A stretch of DNA of 64,000 nucleotides from Struthio camelus (taxonomy: Eukaryota > Chordata > Aves > Struthioniformes > Struthionidae). This document shows positions 14,668 through 52,901 of the stretch, piece after piece. The position numbers and the translations under genes are program-made. Under the pieces are notes generated by a model that did no database searches, was not told where the DNA came from, and saw only the letters and a program-made list of their open reading frames with translations. Numbering within the stretch: the stretch's first letter is position 1; every line of letters begins with the position of its first letter. The stretch spans positions 203,910,747-203,974,746 of the forward strand of contig NC_090942.1 in NCBI RefSeq assembly GCF_040807025.1, read 5' to 3'.

Positions 14668-14829
14668 GGCCCCAGCGCCCCCGGCCCGGCCCGGCCCCGC
14701 CCCGGGCGCCCCGCGGGCGGGCGGAGGCGGGTTAAAAGCGGCGGCAGGTGAACGGGGAGGGACCGCAGCGCTCCGCGGCGGCGAGGCCGGGACCGGCCGC
14801 TCCGCAGGCACCGCCGGACCCGGGAGCCG
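14668..14829 (+). repeat. GJB6 copy of the duplicated core promoter / exon 1 block
   Basis: From 14690 to 14829 this sequence is identical, base for base, to 44656-44795 in front of GJB2 (140 nt, constant offset 29,966). Homology restarts upstream at GGCCCCAGCGCCCC (14668 versus 44574) and downstream at CGAGGCAGGTGAG, the splice donor. The block includes GC boxes, the TTAAAA box and the probable transcription start. Confidence 0.95.
14732..14737 (+). promoter_or_regulatory. TTAAAA box of GJB6 promoter
   Basis: TTAAAA sits in GGCGGGTTAAAAGCGGCGG, just downstream of clustered GC boxes. A TTAAAA box with GC boxes has been described for the human GJB2 basal promoter. Transcription would start about 25-30 nt downstream, near 14760. 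Confidence 0.7.
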
Positions 14830-14912
14830 CGCCGCCCTGCCCGCCCTCGCCGCCCGCAGCGGCTGGCGCCGGCGGCTCCGTGCGGTGCTGATCCGCGGGC
14901 GCGGCGAGGCAG
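14760..14912 (+). other. GJB6 exon 1 (untranslated), predicted
   Basis: The 5' edge is placed about 28 nt after the TTAAAA box and is approximate. The 3' edge is the donor CGAGGCAG|GTGAGG. No ATG opening a connexin frame occurs here, so the exon is 5' UTR. Compared with GJB2 exon 1 it carries about 60 extra GC-rich bases just before the shared donor. Additional upstream or alternative leader exons, as known for human GJB6, cannot be excluded. Confidence 0.65.
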
Positions 14913-17498
14913 GTGAGGGGCGCGGCGGGGCCGGGCCGGCTGCTCCTGCGCGCCCGCTTGGCCGAGGGCCCCGTCCCGGCGGCGGAGGGACAGGGACAGG
15001 CCCGGCCGGGGCCCCGCGGCACTTGCTGCGGGGGCAGCGCGGCCGGGGCCGCCTCGGCGGAGGCCGGGGCTGCGTGCGCCGAGGTGCCCGGCGGCTGCCG
15101 GCGTTTCCCCTGCCGGCCTCTTCCCTCGGCCGGCGGACTGCGAGCCCTCGGTCTCGCCCTTCCCCGGGTCGGGGGTGCCGGGGGGGACGCTCAGATCCAG
15201 GGCTCTGGTTCCGCTGTTTGTGTTAATGCTCTTGCCGCTGTTAATCGCTCGCTTAACTCTTAACAGCTTTTTGTTTTGTTTTTGAACTCACAATATTGCA
15301 GGAGCTCGTTGTTAAGCACGTTATGTGAAGTACCCGACCGGCTGAAAAAACCCAAGGCCTCGGCAATTACAGGTAATTTGTGACACACCTACAGAGGTTA
15401 GAGAGTTGCACGCAGGTAAACAGCTTGCCCCAGCAGGGTGACAGGTCCTGCGAGCGCCTGCTCACCCCGTGGAAACATTCCTCAGGCTTACGGGGGGGCG
15501 GGGGGATAGGAAATGCGCGGTGTGAGTCACAGAGAGATTTATTTCTGAGTATTAGGGCTGGATGAGATTGCACGAGGAATGAGAGCTCAAACCCTTAAAC
15601 AAAACTGAAGAGGTGTGTTAGAATGAGGACAGGAGTGCGCAGCTCACTGAAGCAGATGGGAATTGACCGCTTTCCTGCGTTTGCTGTGCAGCTCTTTTTT
15701 CCCGTGATTGGGCTTTCCTGAAAACAGCATGTTACTACTCATGTCTTTTTGTTTGAAGAATCTCCCTTTTTTTTTTCTCTTTGTTTCTTTTCTCTTAGTA
15801 AAAAAGATGGATTTTTGTCTTATGCTCCATTAGATTTCATCTTGTAGTGTAGAAATATTCTAGAAGAGCAGGCAGAGGGTTGTAAGTGGCAAACAAGCTT
15901 TTGTCTTAAGAATACTCTTTCAAAATACAGTTTAGGGGGTTGTCTTTGATCACTTACTGGCTGTGGTCCGTGTGAGATATCTGGGTTTTGGCCCAGATCC
16001 TGTTTGGGATGACCACAAGGTAAGTAAGTGTACTGAGCTGAGGAGTTCAGTGCAACAGATTTTTGAGCTTGATCCTGTTAAAGAGGTTGTATGGGGTTTC
16101 TATGGTCTCTTGGTCTCTCTTCTGTCTGGAAACCCTGCTTTCCAGATGCTCTGATGTTTACCTCGAAGCATCCCAGAGGCAAGGCAGCAGGCAGAAAGCT
16201 GTGCACAGGAATGTGTTCTTAGCTTTAGCTGAGAGGACAAGGCAGCGGTGGGTCAAGCTTCTGCTGCACGTCCTGAGCTTGAAGGAGGAGGCACTGCCAC
16301 ATGTTGACTAGGTGTTGCAATGTAGTTTTCTAGCTGGGATTAATAACAGTGCTCCTTGCAGAGCACTGAGGCGGTACTGCTACTGCACGGGCATCAGGAT
16401 TTCTAGGAGGTTTCAGTCCCCAGGGCTGTCAGCCTGGTGATTGGTAGAAGGACTATGTATTGCAAGATTCAAAAATGGAAGGATAAGAAGTTAATTCAGG
16501 GATTCCTCCAGAGGAATCTTTCCTTCCTGACAGGGCCTATTCCCTCAACTTTCTGAAGTCTGTGCTTCTGCTTTAGGTTGTGTTGTATCCTGTGGAGTCT
16601 AACCTGGGTAGATTGCTTAGGTAACCCCATTTAATTTATGGGGAAAGTAATTAAACAGTGAAAGAGGGTACAGCAGGATATCTTTGGTAGCTAGGAGAAT
16701 AGCAGCACTTTGAGATAGCTATAGCTTGTTGTGAGAGGCACTGCTTAACTCAGTGTACATCTGTCAGTAAAAAGGTCACTTTACAAGTTGATTCTTCTAG
16801 TGTTACTCATGTGAGCATTTCCAGGGAAATCAGTGGTCCTCAGAAACAGGGCAGAGATGGAATTTTTCAAGTTTTCTTCCTTGTTTTATTCCTCACTGGC
16901 TTTAGTTGCAACTTAAAGGTTAATATGTTATCTGACGGGAGAACTTCCTGTGACTCTTGCCTCCCGGAAAACTGATCTGAGTAAGGCAAAATCTGAAATG
17001 ATAGTCTATGAGGAAAGATAACATGCTGTCAGAGCAGAAGAAACATGAAAAAATTTAAATATGTGTTCTGTATGAGATAAGCAACAGAATTAGTTTAAAT
17101 GTTTAACAGATTTTTCTTTCTTTGACGCATACTTTAAAGAGGAAAAGATATATTTTTCATCAAAAGTAAAGACAGAAAACCAAAAACTAAACACTCAAGG
17201 AAAAACTGCACTGCAAAATAAAATATTAGCATTTTAAACGTTAATTAACATTTCTAACAAGGTGCAAGACTTATCCTGTATGTGAAAGAGGCAATGACTT
17301 GCCAGTATTGTAGAAAATGTTACATTGAAGCGGATGGATGTTGAGGAACATGTAGTGTATTTGTAGAGGCAATATGCACACTTCTGTAGGTCTGGGGGAA
17401 AGAAACAGGAATTAAATAGGTTTAAAAAAAAAAATTCCTAAAAATGGCATAACTAATAAAGATGCTATTTTCATGACTGAGAGCAATGCATGATGTTC

Positions 17499-17552
17499 TT
17501 TTTTTTTGAAAAAAAAAAAAAAAGAAATAAGAAATAAGAAAAAAAAAAACCA
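17499..17552. repeat. Poly-T / poly-A low-complexity cluster
   Basis: A T run is followed directly by a long A run with GAAATAA interruptions, so it could fold as a T/A hairpin. It explains the Phe/Lys-rich minus-strand frames here, which are not genes. Confidence 0.85.
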
Positions 17553-18670
17553 TGGGAAACAGGAACCCACTTGCATCAGTGAAGAAATTGTCCTGCGGAG
17601 TCTGGTTTCCATTTAAATACATTTCAAAGAAAGAAACTTTAGGCATGCCTTGAAGGTAAGGTTCATAGGGGAAAAATGGTTGACAGGGGCCAAAATCTAA
17701 CAGGAATTCTTCTGCCTTGTCATGCCTTAAAGTATGCTTGGCAACAGGCTGATGTCCTGTTCTGCACAAGTAGAGCAGGTTTCATGTGCAGATGTTCTGG
17801 AGGATGATAATTCTCCATTTACAGCTGTGGGCTGGTAAAACAGCTATGAGTACTTCTAAACAGCCTTGGAGAAACGACTTAACTCATGTAGGAGCCTGAA
17901 TACAGGGCAGTTATAAGGTGAACTGCACCCTTAATGTAGTCTGTTTAAAATTTAACTACTTGAACATTCGGTCATAAAAATATATGCAAATTAATCTGGC
18001 ATGTTGGGGCTATCCGAGTTTTACACTCGGTTTAATTAGAGCAAAGAATGCCTCCTATTTTCATAAAACTTTCGTAGAAGAAAAGTACAATGTTTGCAGT
18101 GTTCAAACCTGCAACTGCCATTGAGGTTTCCTGTTCCCAAATAGGCTTTGCTTGTTCCTGTGTCAAATCAGATATACTGCAATCCCTGTCTGCCACAGCT
18201 TTTCTGTTGCTCTCCAGTTTCCACTGATCTGGAGATAGGTGTTCAGAAGAGTTTAAGAGCTGCTGGAGTGGATTGCACAGGCTTTTGTGGTGGTTATACT
18301 GCTCTTCTGATCCTTATTCAACTTCTGCTAAAAAAGTAAAGTTGTTGTTTAAGTGTTCCAGCTGGATGCTCCTCGAGGTTTTTAATATTCTGCTGTAAGA
18401 TTAAAATTTTGAAAGTTCACTTTAATAGTGAAATGAAAGGACTCTGGTTGCCAAGTCTGAATTCAAAGCTGCATCTTCTTGCGGTTTGAACTCTGCATTA
18501 AAGCTATGGTGATGTAGGCAGCTGTGTCCTTTTTCCAATAACAGGAACATCCTAGATGACTGAATTCAAGCTCTGTATTTCTCCTTCTACTCTGAAATGG
18601 TGCTTACCTGTTTTGGGCCACTTATACCAAAGCATAAATTTGTGAAACCTACAGCAGTAGTGGAGCATTT

Positions 18671-18790
18671 CACAACAACCCTGTGAGGTACTGAGATCCT
18701 TTTGTCCCCAGTTTAATGCCTGGAAAAGTGACCTGAAAATTATGTGGCAAGTCTGGGAGAGCTCGCAAGTGAGTGCTGTAGCCTGTATGC
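18671..18790 (-). mobile_element. MIR-type SINE remnant
   Basis: CACAACAACCCTGTGAGGTA is the characteristic reverse-strand start of the MIR-like tRNA-derived SINE family. It is followed at the expected spacing by a diverged 'tccccagttt', an AAGTGACCTG segment resembling 'aagtgacttgcc', and GGCAAGTCTGGGAG resembling 'ggcagagctgggat'. Match is from memory; a masking search would settle it. Confidence 0.6.
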
Positions 18791-21736
18791 CTGCCTGCCT
18801 TGGTGAAATAAAAAGAAGCTGTCTTCGGAAAAGATGTTAATCTGTTCTGTATTCATGAGAAGCTTCCCGGGCTGGGTCCTGGCCCTACTGTTCTTGTGAT
18901 ACAGCACCGCAGCGAGCCTCAGTAAAACTGAGTACAGCTCAACAAGAGGAATGACAATCTGCACACCTGCTGTTAGGTGTATGCTGTTTTACTTGGCAAT
19001 AAACTAGATCTTAGTTTGGCAGGGTGAAAGTATACTGCTATAACATTGCTAAACATCAGGATTTGCCTGTTCTTCACATCTGGGCATGAAACTGCATACA
19101 CAGCTCTAGGACACCTTGATGCTGGTACCTACCCCTATACTGTGCTGCTGCCTGCATAACTGTCTAGATCAAGACCTGGAGTGAAAGTTGTGTTGGTAAA
19201 GCCTTTAAATGCATGCGAGCCCCCAACATAAAATGCTTCTTGTATGAATGTGGGTCATAAGATCATTTTGATAACTATCTTGGCTCTGAAGCAATTTAAA
19301 ATTCAAATGTTTCTGTGGCAAAAATTCTGTGTTACAACTGCTACTGTCAGTTATCTTTGTCCCCAGCTCTGGTCAGGACCAAAGTTCAGAGGCATCATAA
19401 CCATCTTCCACATTCCTGTGTAACTCCAGCAGAATAAGTAGGTTAGTATCCAAGGGGTAGGTGTAGGGAGACAGGCATAATCTTATTCTGAGCACATACA
19501 TGAGTTAGCTTATTGGGGACCCCTTTCTGACTGTGTCTCATATGCTTCTGTAACATAAGCAAATATTGTACAAACACTTCTAATCTTACCACAGTCTCAC
19601 TTGGTAGTATCCTATGGCAGAGAGTTCCATGCTGTGTGTATGGAAGTAGTGTATTTTCTTTTTTCTTCGTTGTGTTCTAGTTAGATCTTACTTCAGAAAG
19701 CCACAACTATTGTCTAATGATTTATAAGTATAACCGCCTTTAACAGTGAAGAAAAGTATCTGCTAACTAACTCTTGTCATAAAACAAGAGCTCAGTAACT
19801 GTCCTTGGTGTTGTGTATTACAGGGATTTTTAGTGGATTTATGTATAATGCTGTGGTTAGTTTAATGTAGGCTTACAAGAGCTACCTTTTAAAGTAGTGA
19901 GCATGGCAGCAGAGCTTGAAACCTACCCAGAAGGTAGAGAACTGCAGAAACGGTTAGGCTATTGTTCTCTTCTTGCTGCTGTGTCTAGCTTACTACCAGG
20001 ACCTCAGTTTTTGCACTGGCAAGCTAACTTGTACCTCTCTCCATATTGTGTGACCATACTGAATGATTTCCTTCATAACTAACTTTTCAGTGGAGTATGG
20101 TGGTCTCTTACAATCATTTTTTTAACTCTCACGGCTGGGCTCTTGTACTCCTCTCACTGTCCATATGGAGGAACAGAACAATCCGCTGATAGCGGAGCAG
20201 AGCTTTATGCTGATACATGGAAAGACTTATCTTCATGCTACGTTTCAAACTCCTTTTAGGAAAATTCAACACTTAAAGATGGCATAGTCTCATTTTAAAG
20301 TGGGTTCTGAACGCTCAGTTACTCAACTTCACTGACTTCAGCTGTCTTCTGATCTTTCCAGTTTCTTTCTTTATCTCTGGTCCCCTCTTTCATTCCTAAT
20401 TACTTTTGTCACCCCATATTTCACTCAAGCCTTCCTGTCTTTCACTTATTCTTGTACTCTCCAGGAGATGAGGGCTGTACTTCCAGAATGAGGAAAGCGG
20501 GTAAGTCTTTGACTGTCTACATACTGTAATATTTCTGTGGGCATTTAGCTTGATTTGCTACACATCATACTAGCAACTGGGCTAGCTTTCTGAAAATGAG
20601 TTACCGCCTGTTAAATGGAAGTAACTTCCCTGCTTTATCTTTTCCTTTGATCAGCAAGACAGGCAATTAATATTTTACTTGCTAGTAAAAAGATCTGAAA
20701 AGCAAATATGTGGAAGAAAGAACCAGTGATCATGAGTCAGCATCCTAATTTTGAGTAGTTAAGAATAAATGAGCCTTCATATTGCTACAGGTTGCCCAGA
20801 CCTCAACAGAGGGAGGCTTCAACAGAGTATGCATAGCTGGAGTGATCTTCTGCACTGATGGGTTAACAGTGTGAAGGGCCATATGCAGTCGAGTTAAATT
20901 TCACTTTAGTCCTTGTGCCTAAACAGATGTTGTCAGTCTTTGAATTGCAGTTGAGAGGATCTAATGAAGACATTGATGAAAGATAGCTAAAGCTAGCTAG
21001 GAGGAAAGACTGGGCTCAGAGTATTTGGGTAGAAATCAAGCTGCCTGAATCTGGCCCTAAAATCTTAACTGTGTAACTCTTCAAGGAGAATATAATGAGA
21101 CTTGCTGCCTTTATGGGTTGTGGTAGCTGGTAATCAGTGCCCAGATCAAACCGTGTCCCAGAGGTCGTGTGACTCAGACAACATAAAAACAAAACTGAGA
21201 AAAGCTGGAGTGTGGAGGGGCAAAGGTTGGTAACTAGCTCAGCAAGCAGTGGGAAGAATAAGAATGGTGAAAGGAGGAGTGGAAGAGGTAGTTGGAGAGT
21301 TTGGAAAGGTAGGTGGGAATGGTGAAGTGGGTTTGAGCAGATATGAGACACTCTGGATTAGGAGGGGAAATTGCACTAGGAGGCTCGCGGCTTGTTTGTA
21401 CTTGCCAATTAGGTCAGATCAGGAAAGGCTGCCACTCCAAAGTGTAGTGGCTAATTCTGCATGCCTTCTGGTTTGGACGTGCTTTTGCTAGGATTGAAGC
21501 ACCTTGTTGTGGCTTAGCTCAATAGACTCTCAAAGGAGATCGAGCAAGTCAAATTGAGGGTGTAATTTCACCATATATTGTCTTTGGCAGCGAAGATGGT
21601 TTCTTCCCCTTTCCCCAACCCCTTTTCTCTTCCACTGGCTGCTTTGCAATTTGCAGCCCGTTTGAAGTAAAGTTTTGCTTTTGAAATGTTTTGTGGGTTT
21701 ATGCTTTAAATTAGGTGGGTGAAATGGTTCAGTTTT

Positions 21737-21759
21737 AAAAAAAAAAAAAAAAAAAAAAA
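21737..21759. repeat. A23 homopolymer
   Basis: An uninterrupted run of 23 A within GJB6 intron 1. No clear retroposed body precedes it. Confidence 0.95.
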
Positions 21760-23160
21760 CGAAAACATACTTTGTACTGGGGATAACTCTTTACCAAGTC
21801 ACTCTAGTAATCTAGTTTGTAGTGCAGTCCCACAAATCTCTGCAGGAGATGAACTACGCTGTAACTGCAGGAACAAACCATGGTGGGGAAGTGTTTTTTC
21901 ACTTTGCCACTAAAGGCACAGTATCTTTTAACTACATCCTGAGGCACTCTTATTTTTGGAATCTCCTTCTACACAGGAAGATAGGAAGGAGTAATGCCAT
22001 GTGGAGGCACATCCTTGGGAAGCTGTAGCAATGGAAAGGCAAAAGCATTGATGTACAGGCAAAAAAGGTGAAGCATAGAAAAGGGCTTGTGAGAGGAGAG
22101 GATACAATATGGAAGACTGAAAAGTGGACTCTGTGTAAGGAGATGGCTGCCAGACAGGAAGAAGAGGAAGGAACAATAGCTAAGAGCAGAAAGCAAGGAC
22201 GTAAATTTGGGAAATGCAAGAATCCATGGATGGGTGAATGATGTGTGTGTAATGCAACAGTTTATATGGTGTCTGTCTTTTTACAGGTTTTATGTTCAGT
22301 TGTGCGTAAGTATTTCTAGCCATGATACTTAGCTATAATGTCAGTTTATAGATATCTGAATTGCAAGGGGTATGTGTAAGTAACAGAACATGAACAAGAG
22401 CAGAAATGGAGAACCAGTTCTAAATTTCCAATTAGAAGTTGATCTCTATGATCTCCAAAGCAAATTGTGCTAGTAAGGCTGTGGTTGTTTTTTTGTTCTT
22501 ATGTGTCTGTGTGTGGTTTTTGGTTTTGGGGTTTAAGTCAAAACAGATGGCAAAAATAAAACAATGGAGTGGAACTAAATATTTGGAAGTCTAACTAGTT
22601 CCCTTGTAAGGATCTCTGGACTCAAGTGTTTTCCTGTGCCCTCATAGGTTTGTTAACTTTTAGAGACTTTATTTTCTTTCTATATTTGTGTGTTACTGAA
22701 AAATACTTTTTTTTTCTTTTTTCTGGAAGAACTACTTAGCAGGTTAGGAAGGTGACTCTGCTTCTAGGGTTGCTTTCTGTAAGATGCTGTGGTAAGAGCT
22801 TACATAAATTCTGCAGCCTGAAGAAGGCTCAGGAGAAGGTTCTTCAGTCTGGAGGAAAGCTTAGGTTTTCCTCGCTGGCCTTCACCTCCTGATGTAACCC
22901 CACTTAGTCAGCCAGCACTATCTGAGGAAAGTGTGGTTTATGGAGCAATGAAGGGAGATTACCCTGATGTTGTAGTAACTCAAGAAAAAAATAACCTTTT
23001 ATTTCTGGCATTATTCAGTTTCTTTATTTTTTTCCTGAGCTATCATGTACTTTGCTTTATATTTGATGTTGATGCTTATATTGTACTTACTGATTATGTA
23101 TAATTTTGTTGTAAACTGGGAAGTTTTTTCAACTTTGCTCAGAATAGAAGTGTTGATGCT

Positions 23161-23496
23161 GAAGATAGCTGCAGAAAAGCCAGTCTTCCTTTTTGTCTTG
23201 TGCAGTGTGTTGGGAATCTTGAGATTTTTCTTCTGTCACATGATAGATATGATGGCCTTCAAGCCAGTGACTGAAGATAGCTGCAGAAAAGCCAGTCTTC
23301 CTTTTTGTCTTGTGCAGTGTGTTGGGAATCTTGAGATTTTTCTTCTGTCACATGATAGATATGATGGCCTTCAAGCCAGTGACTGAAGATAGCTGCAGAA
23401 AAGCCAGTCTTCCTTTTTGTCTTGTGCAGTGTGTTGGGAATCTTGAGATTTTTCTTCTGTCACATGATAGATATGATGGCCTTCAAGCCAGTGACT
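23161..23496. repeat. Perfect 3 x 112-bp tandem repeat in GJB6 intron
   Basis: Three consecutive 112-bp units begin at 23161, 23273 and 23385, each starting GAAGATAGCTGCAGAAAAGC and ending TTCAAGCCAGTGACT. No mismatch was found between units. Because 112 is not a multiple of 3, the same unit is read in all three frames by the open frame at 23045-23386; this is a repeat artefact and not a protein. Perfect identity indicates a very recent expansion or an assembly duplication. Confidence 0.97.
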
Positions 23497-23891
23497 ACTG
23501 TTCTGTCCTCTAGAAACCTTGCAACAGGAATGTGCTTTCTTTGGCCTTTACAGCACAGGGCACCAAAGAGTTCCTGAGAAAAGAAAATGCACTGTGTGGA
23601 GAAGAAAACCCTTTATGAGGGATTTCCAGAGCCAAGAGCTGTGTGAGCACTTCCACAGGATGAGGCCTGGCTGTCACCAGAAATGTCTGTTTTTATTAAT
23701 CTGAATTATTTTGCAAGTTATTGTAAATCCATCTGAAGGGGGAAATGCCTCTTAATGCGGTTTGAATGGCTCTTGTAGCTAAATTGATGGCTTAGCTTCC
23801 AAAAAAGTTGCAGTGGTTCTGGGGAGGTACGTGGGACACTAAGGTGAAATACTTTCACGTAGTACAGTCCTAGTACTTTGAAGTTCACCTA

Positions 23892-23955
23892 ATGGAAACT
23901 ATGTTGGAAACTATGTTTATGTTGAAGAGTTGAAACTATGTTTATGTTGAAGAGA
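23892..23955. repeat. Short imperfect tandem repeat
   Basis: GAAACTATG recurs three times; the last two units form a 25-bp direct repeat containing TTTATGTTGAAGAG. Confidence 0.8.
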
Positions 23956-25043
23956 TGTATCAGATCAGAGATACTGTTGGGCCTCTCTGAACTCTTCCAA
24001 TGTTGACCGTAGCTTTCTCCCAGCCTCCAAGACTTCTCCCATACTCTAGGAGTAATGCAGCCTGTTATGAACGCAGGTCATCTGTCTAGGCATCTGCTGT
24101 GAAGCTGCCGGCATCTGGTTACCCGAGGCTTTCTTTGTAGCTAGTGGAGAGAAAAGGGAGTTCTGGGGTGAAACTCATTGCACAGGGTTTAAACATCTGC
24201 CTCAAGATGAGATAATCATGACCTAGTCTCACCTTTGCCTCAAACTGTGGTGAGATTTGTTTCAGCTAATGGCCCAGAGAGCTCTGTGGTTATACGGTTA
24301 AAACTCTCAAATGTAGGTTATCCAGACCTGCCCATGTAAGCTACAGAACTTCCATAACTGTTCCTCAGTGTCTGCCTTTATTCCTGGAACGTGCTCATGG
24401 CAGTGTTGTTTACACTGTAAAAGTAAGGAATGCCAAACTTGAACTAAGTTATATAGGAATTTTAGCTATCTAATACTGTTTGTTTTTTCCAAATAAAGTT
24501 ACTTTAAAAGAACATAGAAAACTTAACAGAAACTGAAAACTTCTATAATTTTCTGTTGGAGCTCTGAATCTAACCATCTGCATCTTTTTTTTTCCTGAAA
24601 ATTCCAGGGGCTCTGAATAGTTGCATCTCTAACGCTGGTTATAATTTAAAATGTACCTTACTTCTGACGGCTGATGTTGTGTGGTATTCTTTTGTCACTG
24701 TTATCAAACTGTTATCCAGAATTTGTAGCCTTCAATGAAAAGCTAACTTCATCAGTTTTCCCTGATGGATTTTCCACATTGATGTGGCTATTTTCAGTTG
24801 GCCAGATAGACCTAAAGTATGTTAATGTTTTTTTAATCTGCACATACATGTAATTATTTTACCTGATAATGTGATGAGATTAATAATATGTCACTTGGAC
24901 TGCTTATAGACAAGACCAGCAAACTGTTACCACAGCCAACAGATATCCTGCAATCATACAATATTGCCTTTATTTTATGGCACATGTTTGATAGCGTTTC
25001 TTTCCCATGTTGATTAATCTTTATTTTGTTTGTCTTCTCTTAG

Positions 25044-25065
25044 GTCAGACAATTAAAACAAGACA
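25044..25065 (+). other. GJB6 exon 2 5' leader (22 nt)
   Basis: Begins after the acceptor CTTCTCTTAG and runs to the ATG. The initiation context has A at -3 and G at +4 (ACAATGG), a strong Kozak match. GJB2 has the same leader length. Confidence 0.8.
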
Positions 25066-25857
25066 ATGGATTGGGGAGCTCTGCACACTATCTTAGGAGG
25101 CGTAAATAAACACTCCACCAGTATTGGGAAGATATGGCTCACTGTGCTGTTCATCTTCCGTATCATGATCCTTGTAGTGGCTGCAGAGAGAGTCTGGGGA
25201 GATGAACAAGATGATTTCGTCTGCAACACGCTGCAACCTGGTTGCAAAAATGTTTGCTATGACCATTTTTTCCCCATCTCTCACATCAGACTCTGGGCCC
25301 TGCAGCTAATCTTTGTTTCCACACCTGCACTCCTGGTGGCCATGCATGTAGCTTACAGAAGGCATGAGAAGAAAAGGCAGTTCAGAAAGGGAGATCGGAA
25401 ATGTGAATATAAAGACATTGAAGAAATCAGAACACAAAAGTTTCATATTGAGGGCTCCTTGTGGTGGACATACACCAGCAGCATCTTCTTCAGACTGGTC
25501 TTTGAAGCAGTCTTCATGTATGCGTTTTATTTCATGTACGATGGGTTCCACATGCCTCGCTTAATGAAATGTAATGCTTGGCCCTGCCCCAACACAGTAG
25601 ACTGCTTTGTTTCTCGGCCTACTGAAAAGACAGTGTTTACTATTTTCATGATTGCTGTGTCCAGCATTTGCATTCTCTTAAATGTGGCTGAGTTATGTTA
25701 CTTGTTGGCAAAATTCTTCCTCAAAAGGTCTAGAAAGGCTGGAAATCCAAAACATCACCCCAGCCATGAGACTAAAGAAGAAACCAAACAAAATGAAATG
25801 AATGAGTTAATATCTGATAGCTGTCAGAACACAGTCACAGGATTTTCAAGTAGCTAA
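25066..25857 (+). CDS. GJB6: Gap junction beta-6 protein (connexin 30)
   Basis: A 263-residue four-pass connexin. Six subunits form a hemichannel that docks with one in the neighbouring cell, passing ions and small metabolites; in vertebrates it is prominent in cochlear supporting cells and epithelia. Seen in sequence: N-terminal helix (MDWGAL start); TM1 about 21-40; first extracellular loop with C53, C60 and C64 (C-X6-C-X3-C); TM2 about 76-96; cytoplasmic loop about 97-131; TM3 about 132-156; second loop with C169, C174 and C180 (C-X4-C-X5-C) followed by SRPTEKT; TM4 about 189-213; basic tail. The tail ends [13 protein letters not shown], the hallmark of Cx30, and the length is near the human 261. 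The whole frame lies in one exon, as is usual for connexins. Oddity: the cytoplasmic loop, the second extracellular loop ([13 protein letters not shown]) and TM4 resemble human Cx26 more than human Cx30. Identity as GJB6 rests on the tail and on position upstream of GJB2. Confidence 0.95.
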
Positions 25858-26760
25858 GGTGATGTAAATGTTGGTATTCGCTCTTTTTGGAGTGAGTGTT
25901 TTTGTTTCTAAAGGCTGCAAATACTATTTGTGATAACAAGCAGTTTAAGTTGGGTAAGACTTTGATACAAATTTTCAGGTGCAAATTACACACCTGTTTG
26001 GAAAAAAAGTCAGGGCAGCCTGAACATGTAAAAGTTACCTAAGGATTAATAGAGAATTGTGTTTTTCTGTGAATATCCTTACAAATTGACTATGGTAAGT
26101 GGGGAAACCCACTAATATCTTCACCCTGACATAGCTCCTGAAAACTGCACATGCAACAGCAATAAGAACAAAATTCTTTCCAAGATAGACATTCTAGTAT
26201 TACAAGATTTTTTGTAATAGTGATAGTTTTTACTTGTGGACTGACAATTAAAATATTTTTGTAAAATGTAAGATTCCATGTTACTTAAGGTGTTATAGTA
26301 AACAATTAGTTGTGTCTTATTTTTAACCAGGTATATGCAGCTGTACCAGTAATGCCATGTTAATGGAGAGGAGATAGCAGTAGGCTGCATCTATACAGCT
26401 TTGCAAGCACTGCCTGAGTTTGGACAGGTAGCTTCAGCCATGTGCATATACACAGCCTGCCATGGAGGGAGTCATGTGAGAGCTTGCCATATGTTGTGTG
26501 GATGATTGAGGAAGCTAGATCCTGAGGGCAAACTTGAGCCTTAAAACCAGCATGCCAATATGGATACAGCCAAGGTAGATCAGCTTTAAATATCTAGCAG
26601 ATCTGGTATAAATAATCTTACTAATTCTTTTACTTGCATACTGCCCATCTTACAAGAACATAGGTAATTTTATGTAAATAATCCACTTAGCATGTGTTCA
26701 CTTCTTTAGTGCATTAACTATATTTGTTTCTTTATACTGTATCACATCATGGAGTGTGTG

Positions 26761-26783
26761 TTTTTTTTTTTTTTTTTTTTTTT
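26761..26783. repeat. T23 homopolymer
   Basis: An uninterrupted T run within the predicted GJB6 3' UTR, preceded by a short GTGTGTG stretch. Confidence 0.95.
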
Positions 26784-26969
26784 GTGGTAGACTGATGCTG
26801 TGGTATGAAACTAGGAGCTATTTGACTTGAAGGACATGCAAAAATGTCTACAAAATCGGAAACGGGCCAGGTCTTCTGAATAAAAGGCCAACACTTTAAC
26901 CTTTGCCAATGGAATGAAAGTCTGTATGTGAATGCTGTAAGAACTTTGTTAGTGGAAAATAACTGTTCA

Positions 26970-26975
26970 AATAAA
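26970..26975 (+). terminator. Candidate GJB6 polyadenylation signal
   Basis: Canonical AATAAA about 1.1 kb after the stop codon, with T-rich downstream sequence. AATAAA at 26879 is an alternative. Confidence 0.5.
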
Positions 26976-33900: not shown

Positions 33901-34575
33901 GGCACCAGGCACGGACAGCAGCAGGCTCGAGCGACTTTACGGCTAGGACGAGAAGAGCTGTGGGCACCTTACAAGCCCACAGGCCACACTAGACGGCACC
34001 CAGTGAATTTAAGTTCCTCGAGGGTTGGGTGGCAGCTGAGTGGGGTTTTTCTTTATTGCACTTCTCCACATAGGTGTCTGAAATTTATTTAAATTCAGCT
34101 CATACCTAAATAGCCATTTGGATCTAGTCCCAAGCCTATCTAATCCCTTTATCCCTTTTCCTACTGTGTAGGAAAACCTTGTTTGGCAGTCAAAGGTTTT
34201 GGTAGTCAATAAAATCATATCAGCTGTTCGTGAAACCAAGGAAGCATTTCAGAGCAGCAGCTGCCTTTTAAGAGGCAGCCTGCCCTGGAGGCCTCCTGTT
34301 AAGCAGAATTTAACCTGGGGTGATACAGCCTCTCAGCCTTCCTCGGTTTTTGTTCATATTGTGGAGCCAGCCTGGGTCCCTTCTGGATGGAGCTAAAGCA
34401 GAAAATACAGTCCAGGAGCACAGCTCCTACGCTCCAGCTGCCACAGGCAGTCAGTCCACAGGGAAGGCCCAAAACAAGCCCTCGAGACGTGTATGCTGTG
34501 GCACCGCTGGGTCCTCAGCACCAGCTGTTTCTACAGATCTGTTCTTGTTGGGCTGCACTACTTGCTAACGAATGT

Positions 34576-34670
34576 GCCTCTAGCCTACGTCTATAGTTTT
34601 GGAATGTAATGTTGTATACCGTAATACATTGCAAGGTACCGTACTGCAATGTAGACATAGCCTAAAGCTA
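34576..34670. mobile_element. Short inverted-repeat element, MITE-like
   Basis: The left end CTAGCCTACGTCTATAG and the right end TAGACATAGCCTAAAGC are imperfect inverted repeats (13 of 17 positions pair). The interior has a further imperfect palindrome (ATTGCAAGGTACC.. / ..TGCAAT) and a repeated TACCGTA. The size and structure fit a non-autonomous DNA transposon remnant, but no clear target duplication was identified. Confidence 0.35.
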
Positions 34671-35259
34671 TTCTATAAATGAGGCAGATGTGAAAAAAAT
34701 GAGGGTCTTGGACACTGGATCTTGCTCCCAGGGTTGTTTATGCATTTTACATTAAATCATCAACACCAGCAGCTGCTCTTAGAAGAAAGAAACCTGCCTG
34801 CCCAGCTTTTGGTAGGAAAAGCTGCAGGAGCCTCTTCCATACCGAAGGAGCAGCTTCTGGGTTCTTCATCCAAAGGGACTGTGGCGGTCTAACCTCAAGA
34901 GAGAGAGGTGAGAGTACAACTGCCCAGTGGCATGGCTCTCAAGCTTCCCTAGGTATCCCTGGGTGTTGTATGGAAATGTAATGCTTACCAGAGGGTGATT
35001 AATTTTAAAAATTTGGCCTGTAGCTTCTACGGCTTATTAGAGAGCATTTAGACAGCTTTCCCCACATCTTCCTTCACCCTCCTGAACTTCAAAGAAGGCA
35101 CAGGTTGTTTTATTCCTGAAGCCAGACTGGCCCCAAGTCTGTCACAGCACATATCAAATGAGCAAAAGGAAAATTAATTTGGCTTTTAATTAATTTGGAT
35201 TTTATTGATCATTGTGGGTTTTTCACATCAGCTGGCAGTGCCATTATACTAGTGGGTGG

Positions 35260-35281
35260 TGCTGGAAGTGTGCTTCCAGCA
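35260..35281. repeat. Perfect 9-bp stem hairpin
   Basis: TGCTGGAAG - TGTG - CTTCCAGCA. The stem is perfect and the loop is four bases. No longer precursor-like structure is evident. Confidence 0.6.
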
Positions 35282-38200
35282 TCAAAGAACTGTAGATGCA
35301 ATTCAACAGGCCAGCTTAATAGAGTGCAGGCCATGCACAGCTGAAAGGGCATGAACAATCCTGTTTGATGCCAACAACATGTCCCTGAAGTTATATATGT
35401 GCATGTGTATTCTTCTGATTTGCATGCAAAATTCCTGTTCCCAGGAGGTACAATAGTCTACTCTACCACGCAACATGTCTCAACACAAGGAAGCATGACC
35501 TCATCTGAGACTGAGGGCTGCAATTTGGAAATAAAAGTGTTTCATCAGCAATTGCAATCCCTAGTGGGAACTGGGAACTCTACCCATTCTAATCTTGCCT
35601 GGAATTTCCTTGTAGCTTCATGAAAATGTTGTCCATCAGAATAATTCCCATTAGATTCTATCGCTTTTGAAATAATAGAAGCTGTCACAATCAAATTACA
35701 AGCACCCTTGCCTGACACGCTGCCTATAACAATAAAATACATAGTAATAAAACACCCTGCGCTACTTAGACCTGACTTATACTACATTTGTTTCCTCAAG
35801 CTTGACATGTACAGAGTTGATGTAAAGTTGCTTTAATCCCATTCTTCTGTTGTCCAAATAAAGCTCCTTGTACAACTCAAGCTATTAGCCAGCCTGTATC
35901 TACCAAATGCCAGTAGGGCTGTTGTGTTGCCTGTGAGAGCTAAGAGGCGAGTCCCACAGGGAACAGCTCATGGCAATGCCAGGTCTCATTATGGCTTTGA
36001 ACTCTTCAGCCTGCAGAGACCTACGCCTGCCTCTCTTCCTCTCCCCTCTTCCCTGCCTCTCCATCTTCCCTGAAAGCTCAGCATGCTTGAGAAATGCCCT
36101 TTTCCCGCTATTTGCCTTTGTGAAAAAGCAGGCATAACCATGTGCCAGGACAAGCCACTACCCGATTTTCCACGCCTGCCTTGATCAGGAAAGACACTGT
36201 AGTCCTTCACAGTGCTGTATTGGGAAGGGGCTGTGCAACCAGGTGGCGAGAAGAGAGAGAGAGCTCTGTGTATGCAGCCGAAGCACTTGGAGCCCAGGGC
36301 TGCCGCTGGGTTCAGAGCAGTGTGGGATGAAAGCAGGTCTACAAAAGGGTTGGGAGTCACCCTGGGGCTATCCTTAGGGCATCCTAAGGAAAGACCATCC
36401 TTGGAAAGACCAAGCCACTGGCAGAGTGGCTGTGGGTTAAGCCAAGAGGGGGCTAGTGAGGAAGTTCCAGCAAACAAAACACTGCATTAATTTAAAGTGT
36501 GTGGTTTTGGTGTTTTCCCCTGAGAGTGCCCAAAATGCACTCCAGCCTCTCTTTGAAAATATTGCCCCTTTATGTGGTTAGATGATAACAAAGAAACAGA
36601 TTTTTTTGCGTAGTCAATCTGTCCTGCCGTAATTTACTCATAAGAAAATAATTTCACATAGGAAACACTTAGCAGCAAGAGCGTTTTGGTGCTGAAACAG
36701 AATTTTGAATGAGAGAAAGCAGCAACCTGTCAGAAACATATTCCTTAACAAAAGAAATGATCTACTGACCCATAAAAATATCCCTAGCAAGTCACCAAGT
36801 ACCTGCTTATTTGGAGCCCTTGACTTTTACCAGTAAGTACTCAGGCTACATGGGTAGTGCAAACATTACAAAAGACAGTGCTTTTCTTGGACATTCGCCT
36901 TTCCCAGCCTGAAGTAAATCACTTTACGATGTACTTGAATGAAGTGGAGAGGAGAGGCAGGAGCATTCCTCACCCAAGGACGTTCTTTTCTTCTTTCTCT
37001 TGAGGTGTGCTGGCTGAAAGGGATATTTCTTTCCCCTGCCTGGAGTATGTTGTAAGCCTGAATGCAGACATTGCTTAGGAACAATCTCAATGGCATTTTT
37101 TAGGAGATGCTGTGAAGCTCTTTCCCTGCCATTTCTTGGCATGACAGCTATGGCTCTGTTTCTTCTGTGTCAAGAAGATCTTTTCTCATACATTTCTGCA
37201 ATGAGCTATGCTGGGACTTCTGCAATAAGCAGCATGACCACAACCAAGCTGGAGTGATGAAGGTGATTGGAACATTTACCCTCCCTGGACTTTATCACCC
37301 TTTGGAGCCAGAAATCGGGGACACCTCCTTAAATGAATTTAGCAGTAATTATTGCTCCACTCCTTAATGATCTGGTCCCTTTGCCTTGGTCCAAGTCCAG
37401 CTGATTCAGTTTAAATATGGACCGCCCGAGTTCTATACGGGTCAAATTCTGTGCAGTTGCACAGAAATCCTGAAGACAGCCTAACTTTCTGCATCATTTT
37501 ACAGAGATCTTTCAGGGAAGCTCCTAGAGGGGTTGCAGTTTATCATTTCCTTTCAAATTAGCCAATATAACTGTCTTCCCAAAGAGATTGGAAGTTATCT
37601 TCCCCTGTCAGGCCCAGGAACAGCCCTTCCTCTCTCTGGGGGATTCTGCCCACCAGGGACTCCTTGATCTTCAACAAAAAGAAATGCGAAAGGGCGGTGA
37701 GTTCTCAGTCTTGCCAGCTTGTGGCAGCTGCTGATGGAAAGATTGGGAAGGGCGGCAAGCTGAAAAGGCACTGTCCTTTAGGCAAGGAAGAGAGCTACTA
37801 GAAAGTCAGAAGGACTGGGAAGGGCACAGTGAAGTGCATAAAGATGCCAGGGAGAGCTTAAAATAGCAAACACAGACACTGCAGACTACTATAGAGAAGA
37901 GCACCCAGGATTTCTTCATCAGCAACTGTTGTACCCCAAGGATAGTGCCATGTTCAAAGCATTCTCTACTATTTATTGCATAAAGCCAGGGAGGAGCCAA
38001 CTTCCTTATCGCTTTCCAACCTGTTACAAGCAAGGACTATAAAGCTTTGTTGAATGCAGAACAATAACCACTTCACACTTCCCTTGGCTGTTCACAATGA
38101 TTTGTACCGTCAAAAATGACCAAGTCTTTCCATGAACTGCTAATTCACGCCCTCACTGTCATCTCCTGTTGTAGACCAAATTTATCAGAATATAGGTCAT

Positions 38201-39968
38201 AAATTATGAGCATTGATCACTATTCTAGCCCTTGAATGTTAAAAGTCCATCTATTTACACTGAACATTTACTCATCACTTGCAGAAATGCAGCAAAAGAA
38301 CCTAGTACAACCAGAAAAAAAAAATTGGGAATGGACTGGATCACACTTACTGGCCCACGGACATTTCACTCAATGGCAGAAAAATTAACATTTCATTGAA
38401 AAGTGCTTTTAGGGCTCTTCACTCATGCCTTCTGCTCAGCAGCATTTTCGTGTACTTTGCTACTTGTTTTTGTGTCTGGTTGTTTCAGGTCAGCAGAAAC
38501 CTTCCAGCAAGCTGACTTCATTCCCCACCCTGCTGGCAACATTTCCTGCTAGACTTCACAGGTATGAGGTAAGGTATAGGTCATCACTGGTATCTTTTCA
38601 AGTTTGTGGAATATCCATGAGTAGATGGTGTTTGAATCCTTCCTTGATGTTGTTTGGTGTCCAGCATAGGCAATGATGAACCATAGCTGTCACCCAAAAA
38701 TCACTGCTCCCAAGGCGAAGGTGTGGATCTGGCAGATGCTACTACCTCACATATTTTGCATTCTTTAATGTGCACAAAGCTTGTACTTCCCCAGTGCAGC
38801 CTCTTTTACTCTATATGGAAGGTTTCTGGTGACCTTCCCAAGATGTGTATAATCTGGGGGATATACCCCTTTTGTTATCTGTTCAGCAGCCCTTGGTCAA
38901 ACATCTCTTCCTGCAGTCTACTGTTTTGGCTTCCTTTATTACTTCCTGTACACTGCAGAGAGTCCATCTTGCACAATTTCTGTTGACTTTCCAGCTCCAA
39001 ATTGTTGTCCATTGACTAACAGCAGTCAAGCTTGAGCATGCAGCTGCCTGATGGTTTTCTGTTACCACAGTAGCTCTCCTGATGTTGTCTGTGCACATGG
39101 GGACCAGTGCCAGCTTTGCACGTAGTTCTGTGCACTTCCGTGGCCAAGAGCTTGGCAAGATCTGCAGGACGTCCCTCATCAGCATCACTGTGTGACCCCA
39201 TCACACAGTGCTCATTTTGAATCTCCTCCATGGAGTACAGTTGGTTGCTGAAAGTCAGAAGATTTTGAGCGGTCCCTGAAATATGCACATAACCACTGTG
39301 ATGAGTGCTATGTTATCTTCATCCATCAGTGGTGATGGAGCCATTGTTCTTGAATGGCAAGTGGTGGCAGGCAGTTTCATGATTCATAGAGTTACAAGAA
39401 AAAAAAGCCTGAAATAGGGGAATACAGAAAAAAGGAAAATGAAGAAAGAAACAGTGGCAATTTGAGAATTTGACTTGTCGTTATTTCTCTGGATGCTGTC
39501 CATATGGATCCCTTATGGCTTCACAAACATGTGCCAGAGAGTATTGCTCCAGGGGAGGATGGGACACAGGGATGCTACCCAGAGGGCCTTGAGGTTGCAG
39601 CTGACTCAGCCAGCTGCACATACATGTGAGCAGCAGGCCACAGATGCAACCCAGCACAGATCTGTTGGTGGAACCTGTTGGTGTGGGTTTGAGTGTGGCT
39701 TCTGCCTTCATAACAGCCCCCCCCCCCTCTTTTTTGACAGCATGAGATTTTATCTGCATCCCCTCAGGTCCTCATGACTCTTCCTTCTCAAACTCAGTTC
39801 AACTCCTTTGTCTCTGGATAGTTTAACAGGAGGAAGTGTTCCCCATTATACATTTGCATTCAAGAAATGACGTGGATAATATGATGCATACACAGGTGCA
39901 ACCAGGTTATTACTGAATCACACTGTTCTTGTTTTTAATTTGATTCAGAACTTGCACTTGACCCCTCA

Positions 39969-40070
39969 GCAAACTCTGTTGGATTAGTCATGTATTCAGT
40001 GATTTGAATATCGACAACTCTGCAAACTCTGTTGGATTAGTCATATATTCAGTGGTTTGAATATTGACAA
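39969..40070. repeat. 53-bp tandem duplication
   Basis: GCAAACTCTGTTGGATTAGT starts at 39969 and again at 40022. The two units differ at a few positions (for example ATGTATTC versus ATATATTC and TATCGACA versus TATTGACA), so the duplication is not very recent. Confidence 0.9.
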
Positions 40071-41689
40071 AAGGATCAAGGGAATGTATTTTATTCAGAT
40101 TGAATTAAAATGGTGCAAAATCCAGCCCACTTCCCATGGGGGAGCCATCCATCATTCCTGGCTGCTGCTTACTCCCCCCTCCATTTCCCTTGAGCTCCTG
40201 TCAGAGTCCGGTGACTTACAGCAAAGATTTTAACTCCTACACTCCCCTCCATGTCTCCCCTTTCTTCTGCAAGGTGCGCAGACTTAGTCTTTCTCCCACT
40301 GTTGACATCCAGCCTTTCCTCAGGCTTTACTGGCACTGCCTGCCCCTCTTAGTGCTGCTCCGTCAGTTCTGCCTTTAGCAATTTCTCTCCCTTGCCTCCA
40401 GTGTTTGCCACCAGCTTCTGGCTGGATTCTTCCTACTCTTATCTCTGCATAAGTAAACTACTGTGGGCTTCAACAATGCTTTGTGTGCTCCAAGAGATGC
40501 AGAAGGACAAAGGCCCTCCTCAGACAAGCATCAAAGGGTCAAGTGTTCCCAGCAAACCTGATAAAACTTTGCTTCAATGATAATGATGCATTCGCTGACA
40601 TGTAATGTGCTGGATAAGGGACAGGGATCAAGCAAAAGCAACGCCTGCCCCTAGTTCTGGTTGTACCCTGCAACTGTTCTCCTGGGGGAGAGCCTTCCTG
40701 AGGGACAGTGGGGAGCACGTTCCGCAGAAGCAGAGAAAATCATGACACTCCTCTATAAACCCTCCACTGTCCATTGGAGCTCTGGTCTATTGTGTATCTT
40801 TAAGAGCCATGCTTTTGGAGACTGTAAAGATTATAGGATTGGTGCCTGCAACCCGACCAGTGCCAGTGAGGTACAGCAACATCAATATAAATCAGGATCT
40901 TTGCAGCTCTTACATTAAATTTGGAGTGAAAAGCACACTGAGTGCTATTATCATACTCAGGCAAGCCTCACATCCTCTGATCTTTCTCCTACAGCATTTA
41001 ACCGCAGTGGTAATTTTATCAAATGGCAACTAGCTAAAAAAGCTGAAAGATGATTCAGTAGCAAACAAAGTATTTATGTTGAATAATAAAAATTTGTCCT
41101 TTGTAAATAAAATGTTCCTGGGAAATGACTTTACAGATTAAAGCTCCTGTGACCTTGTGTTTGTATGCACCAAACCTTAGTAACAGTACTTCAGGGACCA
41201 TTCTATAAAAACCTATAAAAAGCAAAGACTGATTTTTTAAAGGCTGGGGCGACAATTAGAATGAACATGGAAACAATGGCTGGTCATGTGTTTCAAATAC
41301 TCAATGTGTATAATGGTATCAAAGGAGATAAAACAGCTCACTCAAAGGCTAACGAAGTACGATATTTTTGGCATTACTACGACTAAAATGAGGGTTTGAA
41401 AAATTCAGAGACAAACCGGTTATACGTGCTGAGTTGAACTGGGAAGGTGCTTTTACTGCTAACGTTGGTGCAAAATGTCAGGTGTGACACAAGTTTAGCT
41501 CAGTCTAGAAGATATGAAAACCATTTCCAAAGTATAATCTGAGTCTACAGTTACATTTCCAGTTGGTTAAAATAATTATGCATAACAAGTAGCAAATAAG
41601 CTGTTAGATGTTGAAAGAGCCTCATTTTAAGGAAAAATGATGAATAACCTGAGATTGCCAGACATATGATTTGGCAAAAATCAAAATGC

Positions 41690-42620
41690 TTATGAATAGC
41701 ACATCATAAAACTGATGCTTCATGGTAGTCAAAGCTAAACCTCACTGTGAGGAACAGCAAGATCTTATCACACCAACTAAGTGGATAGTAAAATGGCAAA
41801 CGAACCTCAGCGTCAGCTGGTGCATATTAATGCACGGTGAGGAACATTAGTCCAAGTATACCCCTTCAAGCATAAAGGCATATATGCCCTCTTGGGAGGT
41901 ACTTGTTCTGGTTCCTAGAAACTCCTAGCAAAGAATCTTGGAGTGACTATGGAAACCATCAGCTCATTGCTCTGAGGTATTCAAAAGGCAAAAACAAGTA
42001 AGTAGGAATTACTAAAAAATGACTAGAAAATGCAACAGAAAACATTGCTCTGTGCCTGCATAACCTGTGCGTACTACATGTACCCGGACCACCCTCTGCT
42101 AGAAAAGGTGCAGAAAGCTGTGATGAGGACAGTAAAGAGGTGGAACGCCTCCTGCATGACACAGGCAACAAATTCAGCCTTTCGGCATGAAATAAAAAGG
42201 ATGGAGAGAGGAGATGACAGAAGTTTATGCCTTCATGAAAACATGGAGAAGGTGAACAGGGAAAGACAAATAGCCATTACTCTCAATAGAGAGCGCTCAG
42301 AGACGTCCCGTGAAATTATATAAGAGCAGGTTTAAAGTAAATGAAACAATATTTTCACAAGACATAATTAACCTATTGAGTTAATTGCTCCAGCATCTTG
42401 TGGACTCCAAGATATATATGGAATAAATACAAAACATTTATATATTCCAAATATAAAGACATCATCAAAACATGATTAGACAAAGCAATGTCAGAAAGTG
42501 AATCAAGAGCTATTAAAAGTGTAGATCCAGACAGCCTCTGGAGATGGCCATGGGCTGTTAAGTGAAGAGATGCAAACATAACCTTTGGAAAGCCCTAAGA
42601 TACAGATTACTGGAAGATGA
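41690..42620 (+). mobile_element. Ancient CR1 LINE fragment
   Basis: Scattered but collinear matches to the old amniote CR1 pattern: AAAATGGCAAACGAACC (cf. 'aaaatggcagatgaaattc'), AATCTTGGAGTGACTATGGA, GGAATTACTAAAAAATGAC, GAAAAGGTGCAGAAAGCTGT, GGATGGAGAGAGGAGATGA, ATGGAGAAGGTGAACAGGGA, AGAGCAGGTTTAAAGTAAAT and ATATTTTCACAAGACATAAT, in the order of the reverse transcriptase C-terminus and 3' part. The 97-codon frame at 42030-42323 is a relic of this and not a gene. Divergence shows an old insertion. The left boundary is uncertain. Confidence 0.72.
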
Positions 42621-43892
42621 TTCCAAGATTTATGCTATCTTGAAATAAACTAAAAACTGTTTCTGTGTTAAAGAAAGTTACAAAAGTATTTATTTTTCTA
42701 GTTTTAGGAAGCTTTTATTTTTGCATTACTTTACAATCCACAATAATCAATGTTTTGTACGTTTACACATGCTTTTTAACAGGCACCACTCAGTGCTATT
42801 AGAATAACCCTTCCTTACCATCGAGCATTTCTAGATGCCAGAGTTGTCAATACTTGGCTCTTGCACCTCTTGCTAACCAGCCAAGCATTAAGCCAAGTGT
42901 AGGCAAGAAGTCTGCATCCTCGGACTTGTGATTTGTCAAAATTCCTTGCCTGTACTCCCCTCCCCTTCCCAAATAAAACATTACATACCTCCTCACACAT
43001 ATATACAAGCAAACTAAAATGAAGAAAAATAAAAGAGGCATTCAGCTTTACCCTTTTTTTTTGGTGGTAAATGACTGAACAACACCAACTGTGGATATCC
43101 TTCAAACATTTACATCTACCACTACGAAACTTTGGTTTTGCTTTATAAAACACAGATGATTCTTCCAAACATTTCTTCTTAGGTTTCCAGAGATCTTACA
43201 TATATGACTTCCTTTCTTCCTTCTAAACCACCCAGAGCAAAAACAAATCCACATTTCCCACATTATAGACACATACATAAGGTCTTGGGTTTCGCAATGC
43301 CTATCTATGCAAACCACTAGATCAATTTTAAATGATATTTAAATCTCTACTGATGGAAGCGTTTTTACTTCCAGATATGCCTCATAAAAGCAGACAAGCT
43401 ATTAAGTACAACGTATAGGACAGATTTCTACTGCAGCTTACAGAAATATAAACACCATTTTCAGTCAGTACGTTATATGCTTAGGACAAGCTTTCATTAC
43501 CTCACTAGTCATATGCATAGCATTTCACCATCTTCGAGACTTTTTTACATGCCCTCTTTCAAGACAGCATTTTTCTCTGCTGGGAATTTTAGTCACATTG
43601 TTTTAAAGAGTAAAGACTCTTTGCTATGTCGTAATCAAGTGTCATTTAATAGAACTCGTTCCTGGTTGCATGTTTTGGGTCAAGTGCAGATAATGTGAGG
43701 CAGCCCTGAGCCAGACAGCAATACTAGGCACAGTTTTCAATCAAGCTCAAGCTAAGGGCTGCGACGGTTCTCGTCTGTGTCAGCACTGGTCCAAGCCACT
43801 CAGTCATGCCTGGCTGGCCATGGCCTCTGTCCTCAGATTGCCTTAAAGACAGTGTTTAAGGACACTGTAGCAAGAAGCCAGTACAAGAGACC

Positions 43893-43923
43893 GCTTTTCT
43901 TTTTCTTTCTTTCTTTTTCTTCT
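43893..43923. repeat. Pyrimidine (CTTT)n tract
   Basis: Low-complexity CTTT-type repeat. Confidence 0.85.
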
Positions 43924-44595
43924 AATCATCCACCACAGAGCCCAATCTCCAGGAAAGTAACACCTAGAGATCTTCCATGTGGCGTTTAACTCTTCTTTGA
44001 TTCACTCTTCACATTTTCTGCCAGATTATTTTCTCCCACAAAACCAGTCTGAAGTCCCCTTTACTCCAGTGAAGCCACGGTTGCGCTCAGTATTGGAGAT
44101 ATTAGAAAGGTTTCACACAGCTGTAAAAAAGCCCACAAGACCTCAAATGGAGAGCAGTCATAAGCCGTACTTCTAAACCACCCTTAGCGGCCCGCTGCCC
44201 TCATCCCGACCTCTGGCTACCAAGACCGTTCATTTTGCTCGTATCAAACCAGCAGCTAGTTTATCTGTTCCTTATCTTCAAGCCACCCAGCAAGGTCTCC
44301 GCCTCCCTTTTCCTCCGGCTCGCCCTCCGGAAAGCTGTCCTCCTCCAGGAAACGGGACCCTCTCGGGGCGCTGCCGGGACCGCCGCGGCCTCTCCCTCCC
44401 TCCCCGGAGCCGGCGCGGCAGCCGCTCCCGCCGCAGGGCCCGGCCGACGCTCGTCCCTCGCCAGCGGCGCGCCGGGCCGAGCCCCGGGGCGCCCGCACCG
44501 CGCCGGGCTTTGGAGCCGCGGGCGGCTCCGTCCCCGCCGCACGGCCCCGGGCAGGGGCACAGCAACACCCGCCGGCCCCAGCGCCCCCTGCCCGG

Positions 44596-44660
44596 CCCCG
44601 GCCCCGGCCCCGGTCCCGGTCCCGGTCCCGGTCCCGGTCCCGGTCCCGGCCCGGCCCCGG
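44596..44660. repeat. GGCCCC/GGTCCC hexamer array in GJB2 promoter
   Basis: Tandem GGCCCC units pass into about five GGTCCC units and back into GGCCC-type units, ending about 40 bp before the TTAAAA box. On the complementary strand the run of GGG tracts could form a G-quadruplex. It encodes a PGPGPG-type frame that is not a gene. Length variation between individuals would be expected. Confidence 0.92.
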
Positions 44661-44697
44661 CCCCGCCCCGGGCGCCCCGCGGGCGGGCGGAGGCGGG

Positions 44698-44703
44698 TTA
44701 AAA
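44698..44703 (+). promoter_or_regulatory. TTAAAA box of GJB2 promoter
   Basis: Same context as in the GJB6 promoter (GGCGGGTTAAAAGCGGCGG). A TTAAAA box next to GC boxes is a described feature of the human GJB2 basal promoter. Start of transcription is expected near 44726. Confidence 0.72.
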
Positions 44704-44725
44704 GCGGCGGCAGGTGAACGGGGAG

Positions 44726-44816
44726 GGACCGCAGCGCTCCGCGGCGGCGAGGCCGGGACCGGCCGCTCCGCAGGCACCGCCGGACCCGGGAGCCGTGCCG
44801 TGCCGTGCCGAGGCAG
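44726..44816 (+). other. GJB2 exon 1 (untranslated), predicted
   Basis: The 5' edge is inferred from the TTAAAA box. The 3' edge is the donor CGAGGCAG|GTGAGG. Before the donor lies a GTGCC triplet repeat (about 44796-44810) in place of the longer GC-rich segment in GJB6 exon 1. An untranslated exon 1 about 90 nt long fits vertebrate GJB2. Confidence 0.7.
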
Positions 44817-52900: not shown

Positions 52901-52901
52901 A

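Follow-up and report, generated by a model that had tools for sequence, protein, structure and literature searches.

An identical 140-bp core promoter in front of GJB6 and GJB2 of Struthio camelus, probably left by recent gene conversion

Why should two old tandem duplicates, whose coding exons now differ at 18% of their nucleotides, begin with exactly the same core promoter? The question is raised by the GJB6/GJB2 locus of Struthio camelus, which we examined in a window of 64,000 nucleotides (NCBI RefSeq assembly GCF_040807025.1, contig NC_090942.1, forward-strand positions 203,910,747 to 203,974,746; coordinates below count from the first letter of this stretch). We found that a tract in front of GJB6 and another in front of GJB2 agree at 140 of 140 bases, in direct orientation and at an offset of 29,966, as a sequence-only reading of the window had claimed. 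Recent interlocus gene conversion between old paralogous promoters is, in our judgement, the probable explanation of this identity. The argument turns on these features:

14690 to 14829, plus strand: 140-bp identical tract, GJB6 copy, with GC boxes, TTAAAA, predicted start site and early 5' untranslated region
44656 to 44795, plus strand: 140-bp identical tract, GJB2 copy
14667 to 14829, plus strand: homologous core-promoter/exon 1 block, GJB6 copy, with 22 of 23 left bases matching and then the identical tract from 14690
44573 to 44795, plus strand: homologous block, GJB2 copy, with 60 extra bases of CCCGGN-type repeat
14732 to 14737, plus strand: TTAAAA TATA-like box, GJB6
44698 to 44703, plus strand: TTAAAA box, GJB2
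14905 to 14918, plus strand: predicted end of GJB6 exon 1 and splice donor, CGAGGCAG followed by GTGAGG, with GT at 14913
44809 to 44822, plus strand: predicted end of GJB2 exon 1 and splice donor, CGAGGCAG followed by GTGAGG, with GT at 44817
14201 to 15400: CpG island at the GJB6 promoter
44051 to 45550: CpG island at the GJB2 promoter

The identity starts and stops in a step. All seven 20-bp bins of the tract match at 20/20, while the 17 flanking bins examined in the same register all fall to between 3 and 11 matches out of 20. The tract has a GC content of 84%. Among 300 pairs of islands simulated by a Markov model with the same composition, exact matches ran to 20 bp at most, which rules out a chance origin. 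When one gap is allowed, homology extends left to 14667 and 44573, with 22 of 23 bases matching, and the GJB2 copy carries its 60 extra bases between this left part and the 140 bp. The CCCGGN-type array itself spans 44588-44655, lies inside the homologous block of the GJB2 promoter only, and possibly arose by slippage after conversion. A 14-bp motif of the left part, GGCCCCAGCGCCCC, occurs at 14668-14681 and 44574-44587, and this motif and the one at the donor stand in the same order at both loci. The sequence-only reading had taken these two motifs to show that the whole promoter-exon 1 unit is homologous. The block indeed reaches further left than the identical tract, but neither 14-bp match is longer than chance would allow in islands so rich in GC, so that only the matching order of the two counts, and the second presumably owes part of its likeness to the splice-donor consensus.

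Downstream of the tracts, the single-exon frames 25066-25857 and 47248-47925 encode connexins (Pfam PF00029) whose closest named proteins are bird GJB6 and bird GJB2, respectively; the window GJB6 shares 96% identity with a cluster representative that bears the name of Aptenodytes patagonicus.

25044 to 25857, plus strand: GJB6 exon 2, with a predicted acceptor and 22-nt leader, coding 25066-25857, 263 aa
47226 to 47925, plus strand: GJB2 exon 2, with a predicted acceptor and 22-nt leader, coding 47248-47925, 225 aa

According to a published survey, the duplication that gave GJB2 and GJB6 postdates the split from amphibians and slightly predates that between reptiles and mammals (PMC7914757). 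We took this old duplication from print without re-deriving its date, and what we infer here is that the later event was conversion, together with its date and its cause. The two coding exons are 82.1% identical at the nucleotide level, with a synonymous divergence (dS) of 0.69 and differences at 20 of 68 four-fold sites, and at the coding rate of 18% the probability of 0 differences in 140 bases is about 1e-12. From 0/140, and on the assumption that the rate given for zebra finch, 2.0e-9 per year (PMC12047795), applies to the window species, the last homogenisation would fall within about 5 My if the tract is unconstrained and about 18 My at 0.3 times that rate. The published duplication is thus far older than the tract identity implies. 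Codons 16-41 differ at 8 of 78 nt, all silent, just as had been claimed, and the wider statement that the promoters are more alike than the coding exons is true as well, but the coding exon likewise shows signs of exchange.

One database protein allows a comparison of the promoter between species. When the six reading frames of the tract were compared with 5.8 billion proteins, 7,974 candidates were scored and a single one reached E ≤ 10: P0139, of 158 aa, whose E-value of 3.9 is not significant by itself. Across the TTAAAA region 27 of 32 residues match without a gap. Moreover, the motif PHLPR, whose codons on the opposite strand spell the exon 1 splice donor, lies outside the query and yet stands in frame in P0139 as it does in GJB2; it arises at a rate of 0.0005 when that part of P0139 is shuffled. 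The residue match and the in-frame PHLPR make P0139 credible despite its E-value. It may be a GJB2 or a GJB6, possibly from a distant reptile. If it is a true relative, at least 5 of 96 bases must differ between it and either window copy, compared with 0 of 140 between the copies (Fisher p = 0.010); on this one protein, at E 3.9, the paralogous tracts may be more alike than those of different species.

The coding exons were compared in protein trees of 34 rows, comprising the two window proteins and 32 of 138 fetched database proteins hand-picked for lineage spread. Fish except gar and coelacanth, most mammals, several amphibians, many squamates and odd models were dropped; the bird models P0046 and P0035, which carry unrelated tails within the C half, were kept. 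Squamate rows were labelled GJB2 or GJB6 by length and C-half type, in P0006 against its database name (beta-2-like). With residues 1-100, both bird GJB6 rows nest within bird GJB2 with modest support (76/88 and 77/79, unstarred); with residues 101-217, bird GJB2 forms one clade (100/98.6). In approximately unbiased (AU) tests, the N half gave p = 0.0495 for bird GJB2 as one clade and p = 0.192 for all birds together. The C half rejected all birds together (p = 0.0147) and gave p = 0.477 for sauropsid GJB6 together. Residue 42 is R in both bird GJB6 rows and E in all five turtle and squamate GJB6 rows, and silent differences between the window genes number 20 of 88 in codons 1-100 and 29 of 78 after them. 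These patterns suggest, without proving it, that the 5' half of the coding exon has undergone exchange. In addition, two bird GJB2 cluster representatives, P0020 and P0031, carry H7-T8 like bird GJB6 on a GJB2 body and are candidates for coding-exon conversion in other birds.

Conversion is thus favoured by the step-like edges, the absence of differences set against an ancient duplication, the more diverged P0139 as a possible promoter relative, and the hints that the coding exon exchanged sequence over its 5' half. Under this explanation, GJB6 and GJB2 would be old tandem duplicates with promoter-exon 1 units still homologous, and interlocus (non-allelic) gene conversion would recently have overwritten the core promoter of one with that of the other. 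What would remain is a sharply bounded stretch of 140 identical bases in islands that otherwise align poorly. Birds are reported to lack PRDM9 and to concentrate recombination at promoters and CpG islands (PMC5519329, PMC12047795). As each tract sits within such an island, the promoter 30 kb away on the same strand could occasionally serve as the template for mending a break in the other. The mean non-crossover tract in zebra finch is given as about 32 bp (PMC12047795), which requires either one rare, unusually long tract or more than one event. A tract associated with a crossover would yield 140 bp, as would several events that overlap.

Several points weigh against conversion. Under an exponential distribution with a 32-bp mean, 1.3% of tracts reach 140 bp, and 140 bp is short for ectopic recombination. 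P0139, a possible relative at an E-value of 3.9 that could be either paralogue, is the sole between-species promoter comparison. In the N half, the sauropsid GJB6 grouping is not rejected (p-AU 0.082) and no starred branch joins bird GJB6 to GJB2, while the silent-site tests are not significant in the window coding exon (halves, p = 0.061; longest run, p = 0.13). The H7-T8 pair also occurs in one squamate GJB2, in one of three mammal GJB2 and in all five mammal GJB6 rows, so that single residues may be convergent or ancestral.

Could selection instead have held every base of the shared core promoter in both genes since the duplication? TTAAAA is common to human GJB2 (PMC6627114), and P0139 retains much of the tract, its 27 of 32 matching residues lying in one frame. 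Yet that protein, if a true relative, tolerates its five or more changes, the places in the window copies that correspond to the human GC boxes hold no CCGCCC, so that the promoter has seemingly been rebuilt over time, and the identity ends in a step instead of thinning out as scattered conserved sites. We therefore consider constraint an improbable sole cause. The sequence-only reading had proposed either recent gene conversion or very strong constraint on a shared switch; the former is best supported and the latter is not needed.

Sharp edges would also be left by a recent promoter capture, in which the promoter block was copied and inserted at the other locus in place of a different start, and the simple repeat left of the GJB2 tract could mark the junction. 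However, the 14-bp motifs upstream and at the donor keep the same order at both loci and P0139 has the donor in frame with the tract, which suggests that homologous exon 1 units already existed at both loci and makes capture very unlikely. GC-rich promoters are hard to sequence, and at 84% GC the assembly might have filled one locus with sequence from the other. Such an assembly artefact is highly improbable, since the window contains no N and lies on a 225.6-Mb contig of an assembly of 1.45 Gb in 262 contigs, and the flanks differ, with the hexamer repeat array present at one locus and absent at the other. Having weighed these alternatives, we retain gene conversion as the preferred explanation.

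The rest of the genome was searched for further copies, scoring best candidates only, and no third strong copy or haplotig was found among them. Of the 15 rows given by the DNA search, two were the strong copies and 13 were matches that were short or of low identity, among them the left part of the GJB2 block itself. With up to 3 mismatches allowed, a 22-base core pattern occurred exactly at the two tracts and once elsewhere with 3 mismatches. In viral contigs, an exact 35-base promoter pattern gave 0 matches and the GJB2 protein gave one pattern stretch and no relative; in a collection of genome contigs, the GJB6 protein gave 18 pattern stretches, none of them a relative by tblastn.

We also looked for such a tract as a general habit of connexin clusters, and did not find it in three control regions of the same genome (105 kb in all: C23 with three genes, C11 with two and, on C1, a pair separated by 55 kb). 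As a control this has its limits, with start sites unmapped and with a C1 pair that lacks a CpG island and stands in opposite orientation; C23 and C11 are the better controls. BLASTN gave 4, 40 and 1 rows for C23, C11 and C1, and none of these 45 reached 95% identity over 60 bp. Between-gene matches were coding and 77-89% identical, the other C11 rows were local repeats, and among exact repeats spaced by more than 1 kb the longest, 35 bp in C23 and 25 bp in C11, both lay in coding exons.

What the shared tract does for each gene can be approached through the human GJB2 basal promoter, described with TTAAAA at -24 to -19 and GC boxes (CCGCCC) at -76 to -81 and -88 to -93 (PMC6627114). The window copies resemble it in having a TTAAAA box plus GC boxes ahead of exon 1, and differ in that their GC boxes are off the human spacing. 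By that spacing, transcription would start near 14756 in GJB6 and 44722 in GJB2. With the start site so placed by TTAAAA, CCGCCC is missing at the human GC-box spacing in both copies, where GCGCCC and GGAGCG (GJB6) or CGGTCC twice (GJB2) are found. The boxes that the sequence-only reading had put inside both tracts, TTAAAA and GC boxes, do lie there. Since each copy keeps them, each tract should, by analogy with human GJB2, be the core promoter of its own gene; the tissue pattern is probably set outside the identical tracts. Co-regulation of the two connexins by a shared switch, as had been proposed, is not demonstrated, and two published sources disagree on Cx30. A review describes chicken Cx30 as exclusive to inner ear tissues (PMC4452565), and is contradicted by immunostaining of bird tongue, in which Cx26 and Cx30 are both reported, in different layer patterns (PMC10341081).

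Interlocus conversion and concerted evolution have examples in the globin and MHC genes. The connexin pair resembles tandem paralogues under concerted evolution in that two duplicates stand side by side on one strand and agree over a short tract much better than around it, but its strongest tract is promoter and exon 1 rather than coding exon, and the probable conversion here is unusual by this emphasis on the promoter. Similar promoters are also reported for recent mammalian segmental duplicates, with nonallelic conversion offered as a possible cause (PMC10100218); the likeness lies in the promoter similarity and its possible cause, whereas those duplicates are recent and the published origin of the GJB6/GJB2 pair precedes the divergence of reptiles and mammals. 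In the literature searched, mostly titles and abstract starts, we found no report of GJB6/GJB2 promoter identity. By title and abstract start, the papers that join GJB2 and GJB6 with "gene conversion" are human hearing-loss studies, and "concerted evolution" is absent among the matches listed for connexin/Cx26 literature. An enhancer study near human GJB2 mentions both the GJB6 and the GJB2 promoter (PMC6255903).

Both genes are human deafness genes, and exchange between them bears on their history. The survey puts the mammal-versus-reptile split seen in each gene down to a short period of shared history, and its main text holds no occurrence of "conversion" (PMC7914757). GJB2/GJB6 exchange is an alternative to that explanation, and would bias the trees of both genes. 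A broader proposal, which we regard as doubtful, is that without PRDM9 the lasting recombination hotspots at CpG-island promoters alone drive promoter-restricted concerted evolution, with GJB6/GJB2 as the type case. If this were true, the regulatory starts of tandem paralogues would be homogenised while their exons drift apart, and promoter identity would be predicted in birds and crocodilians, which are without PRDM9, and not in turtles, lizards and most mammals, which have kept it. If the promoters were homogenised through CpG-island recombination, the PRDM9 contrast among reptiles is a direct test. A tract-mediated 30-kb deletion of GJB6 is also plausible.

A further connexin starts at C1:203979864, about 5 kb beyond the window on the same strand, and is presumably GJA3 by its position. 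A GJA3-like gene next door fits the published finding that GJB2, GJB6 and GJA3 are linked (PMC7914757). Between GJB2 and this frame lies a CpG island (60601-62400) that may be the GJA3 promoter. Intron 1 of GJB6 contains, at 23159-23496, three 112-bp tandem units that are 100% identical to one another. On the minus strand, 53282-55597 holds a 771-aa frame with reverse transcriptase and endonuclease domains, a non-LTR retrotransposon that we take to be probably CR1. Three stretches of 211-232 bp, at 6561-6774, 12326-12557 and 52901-53135, are related to one another at 91-97% identity.

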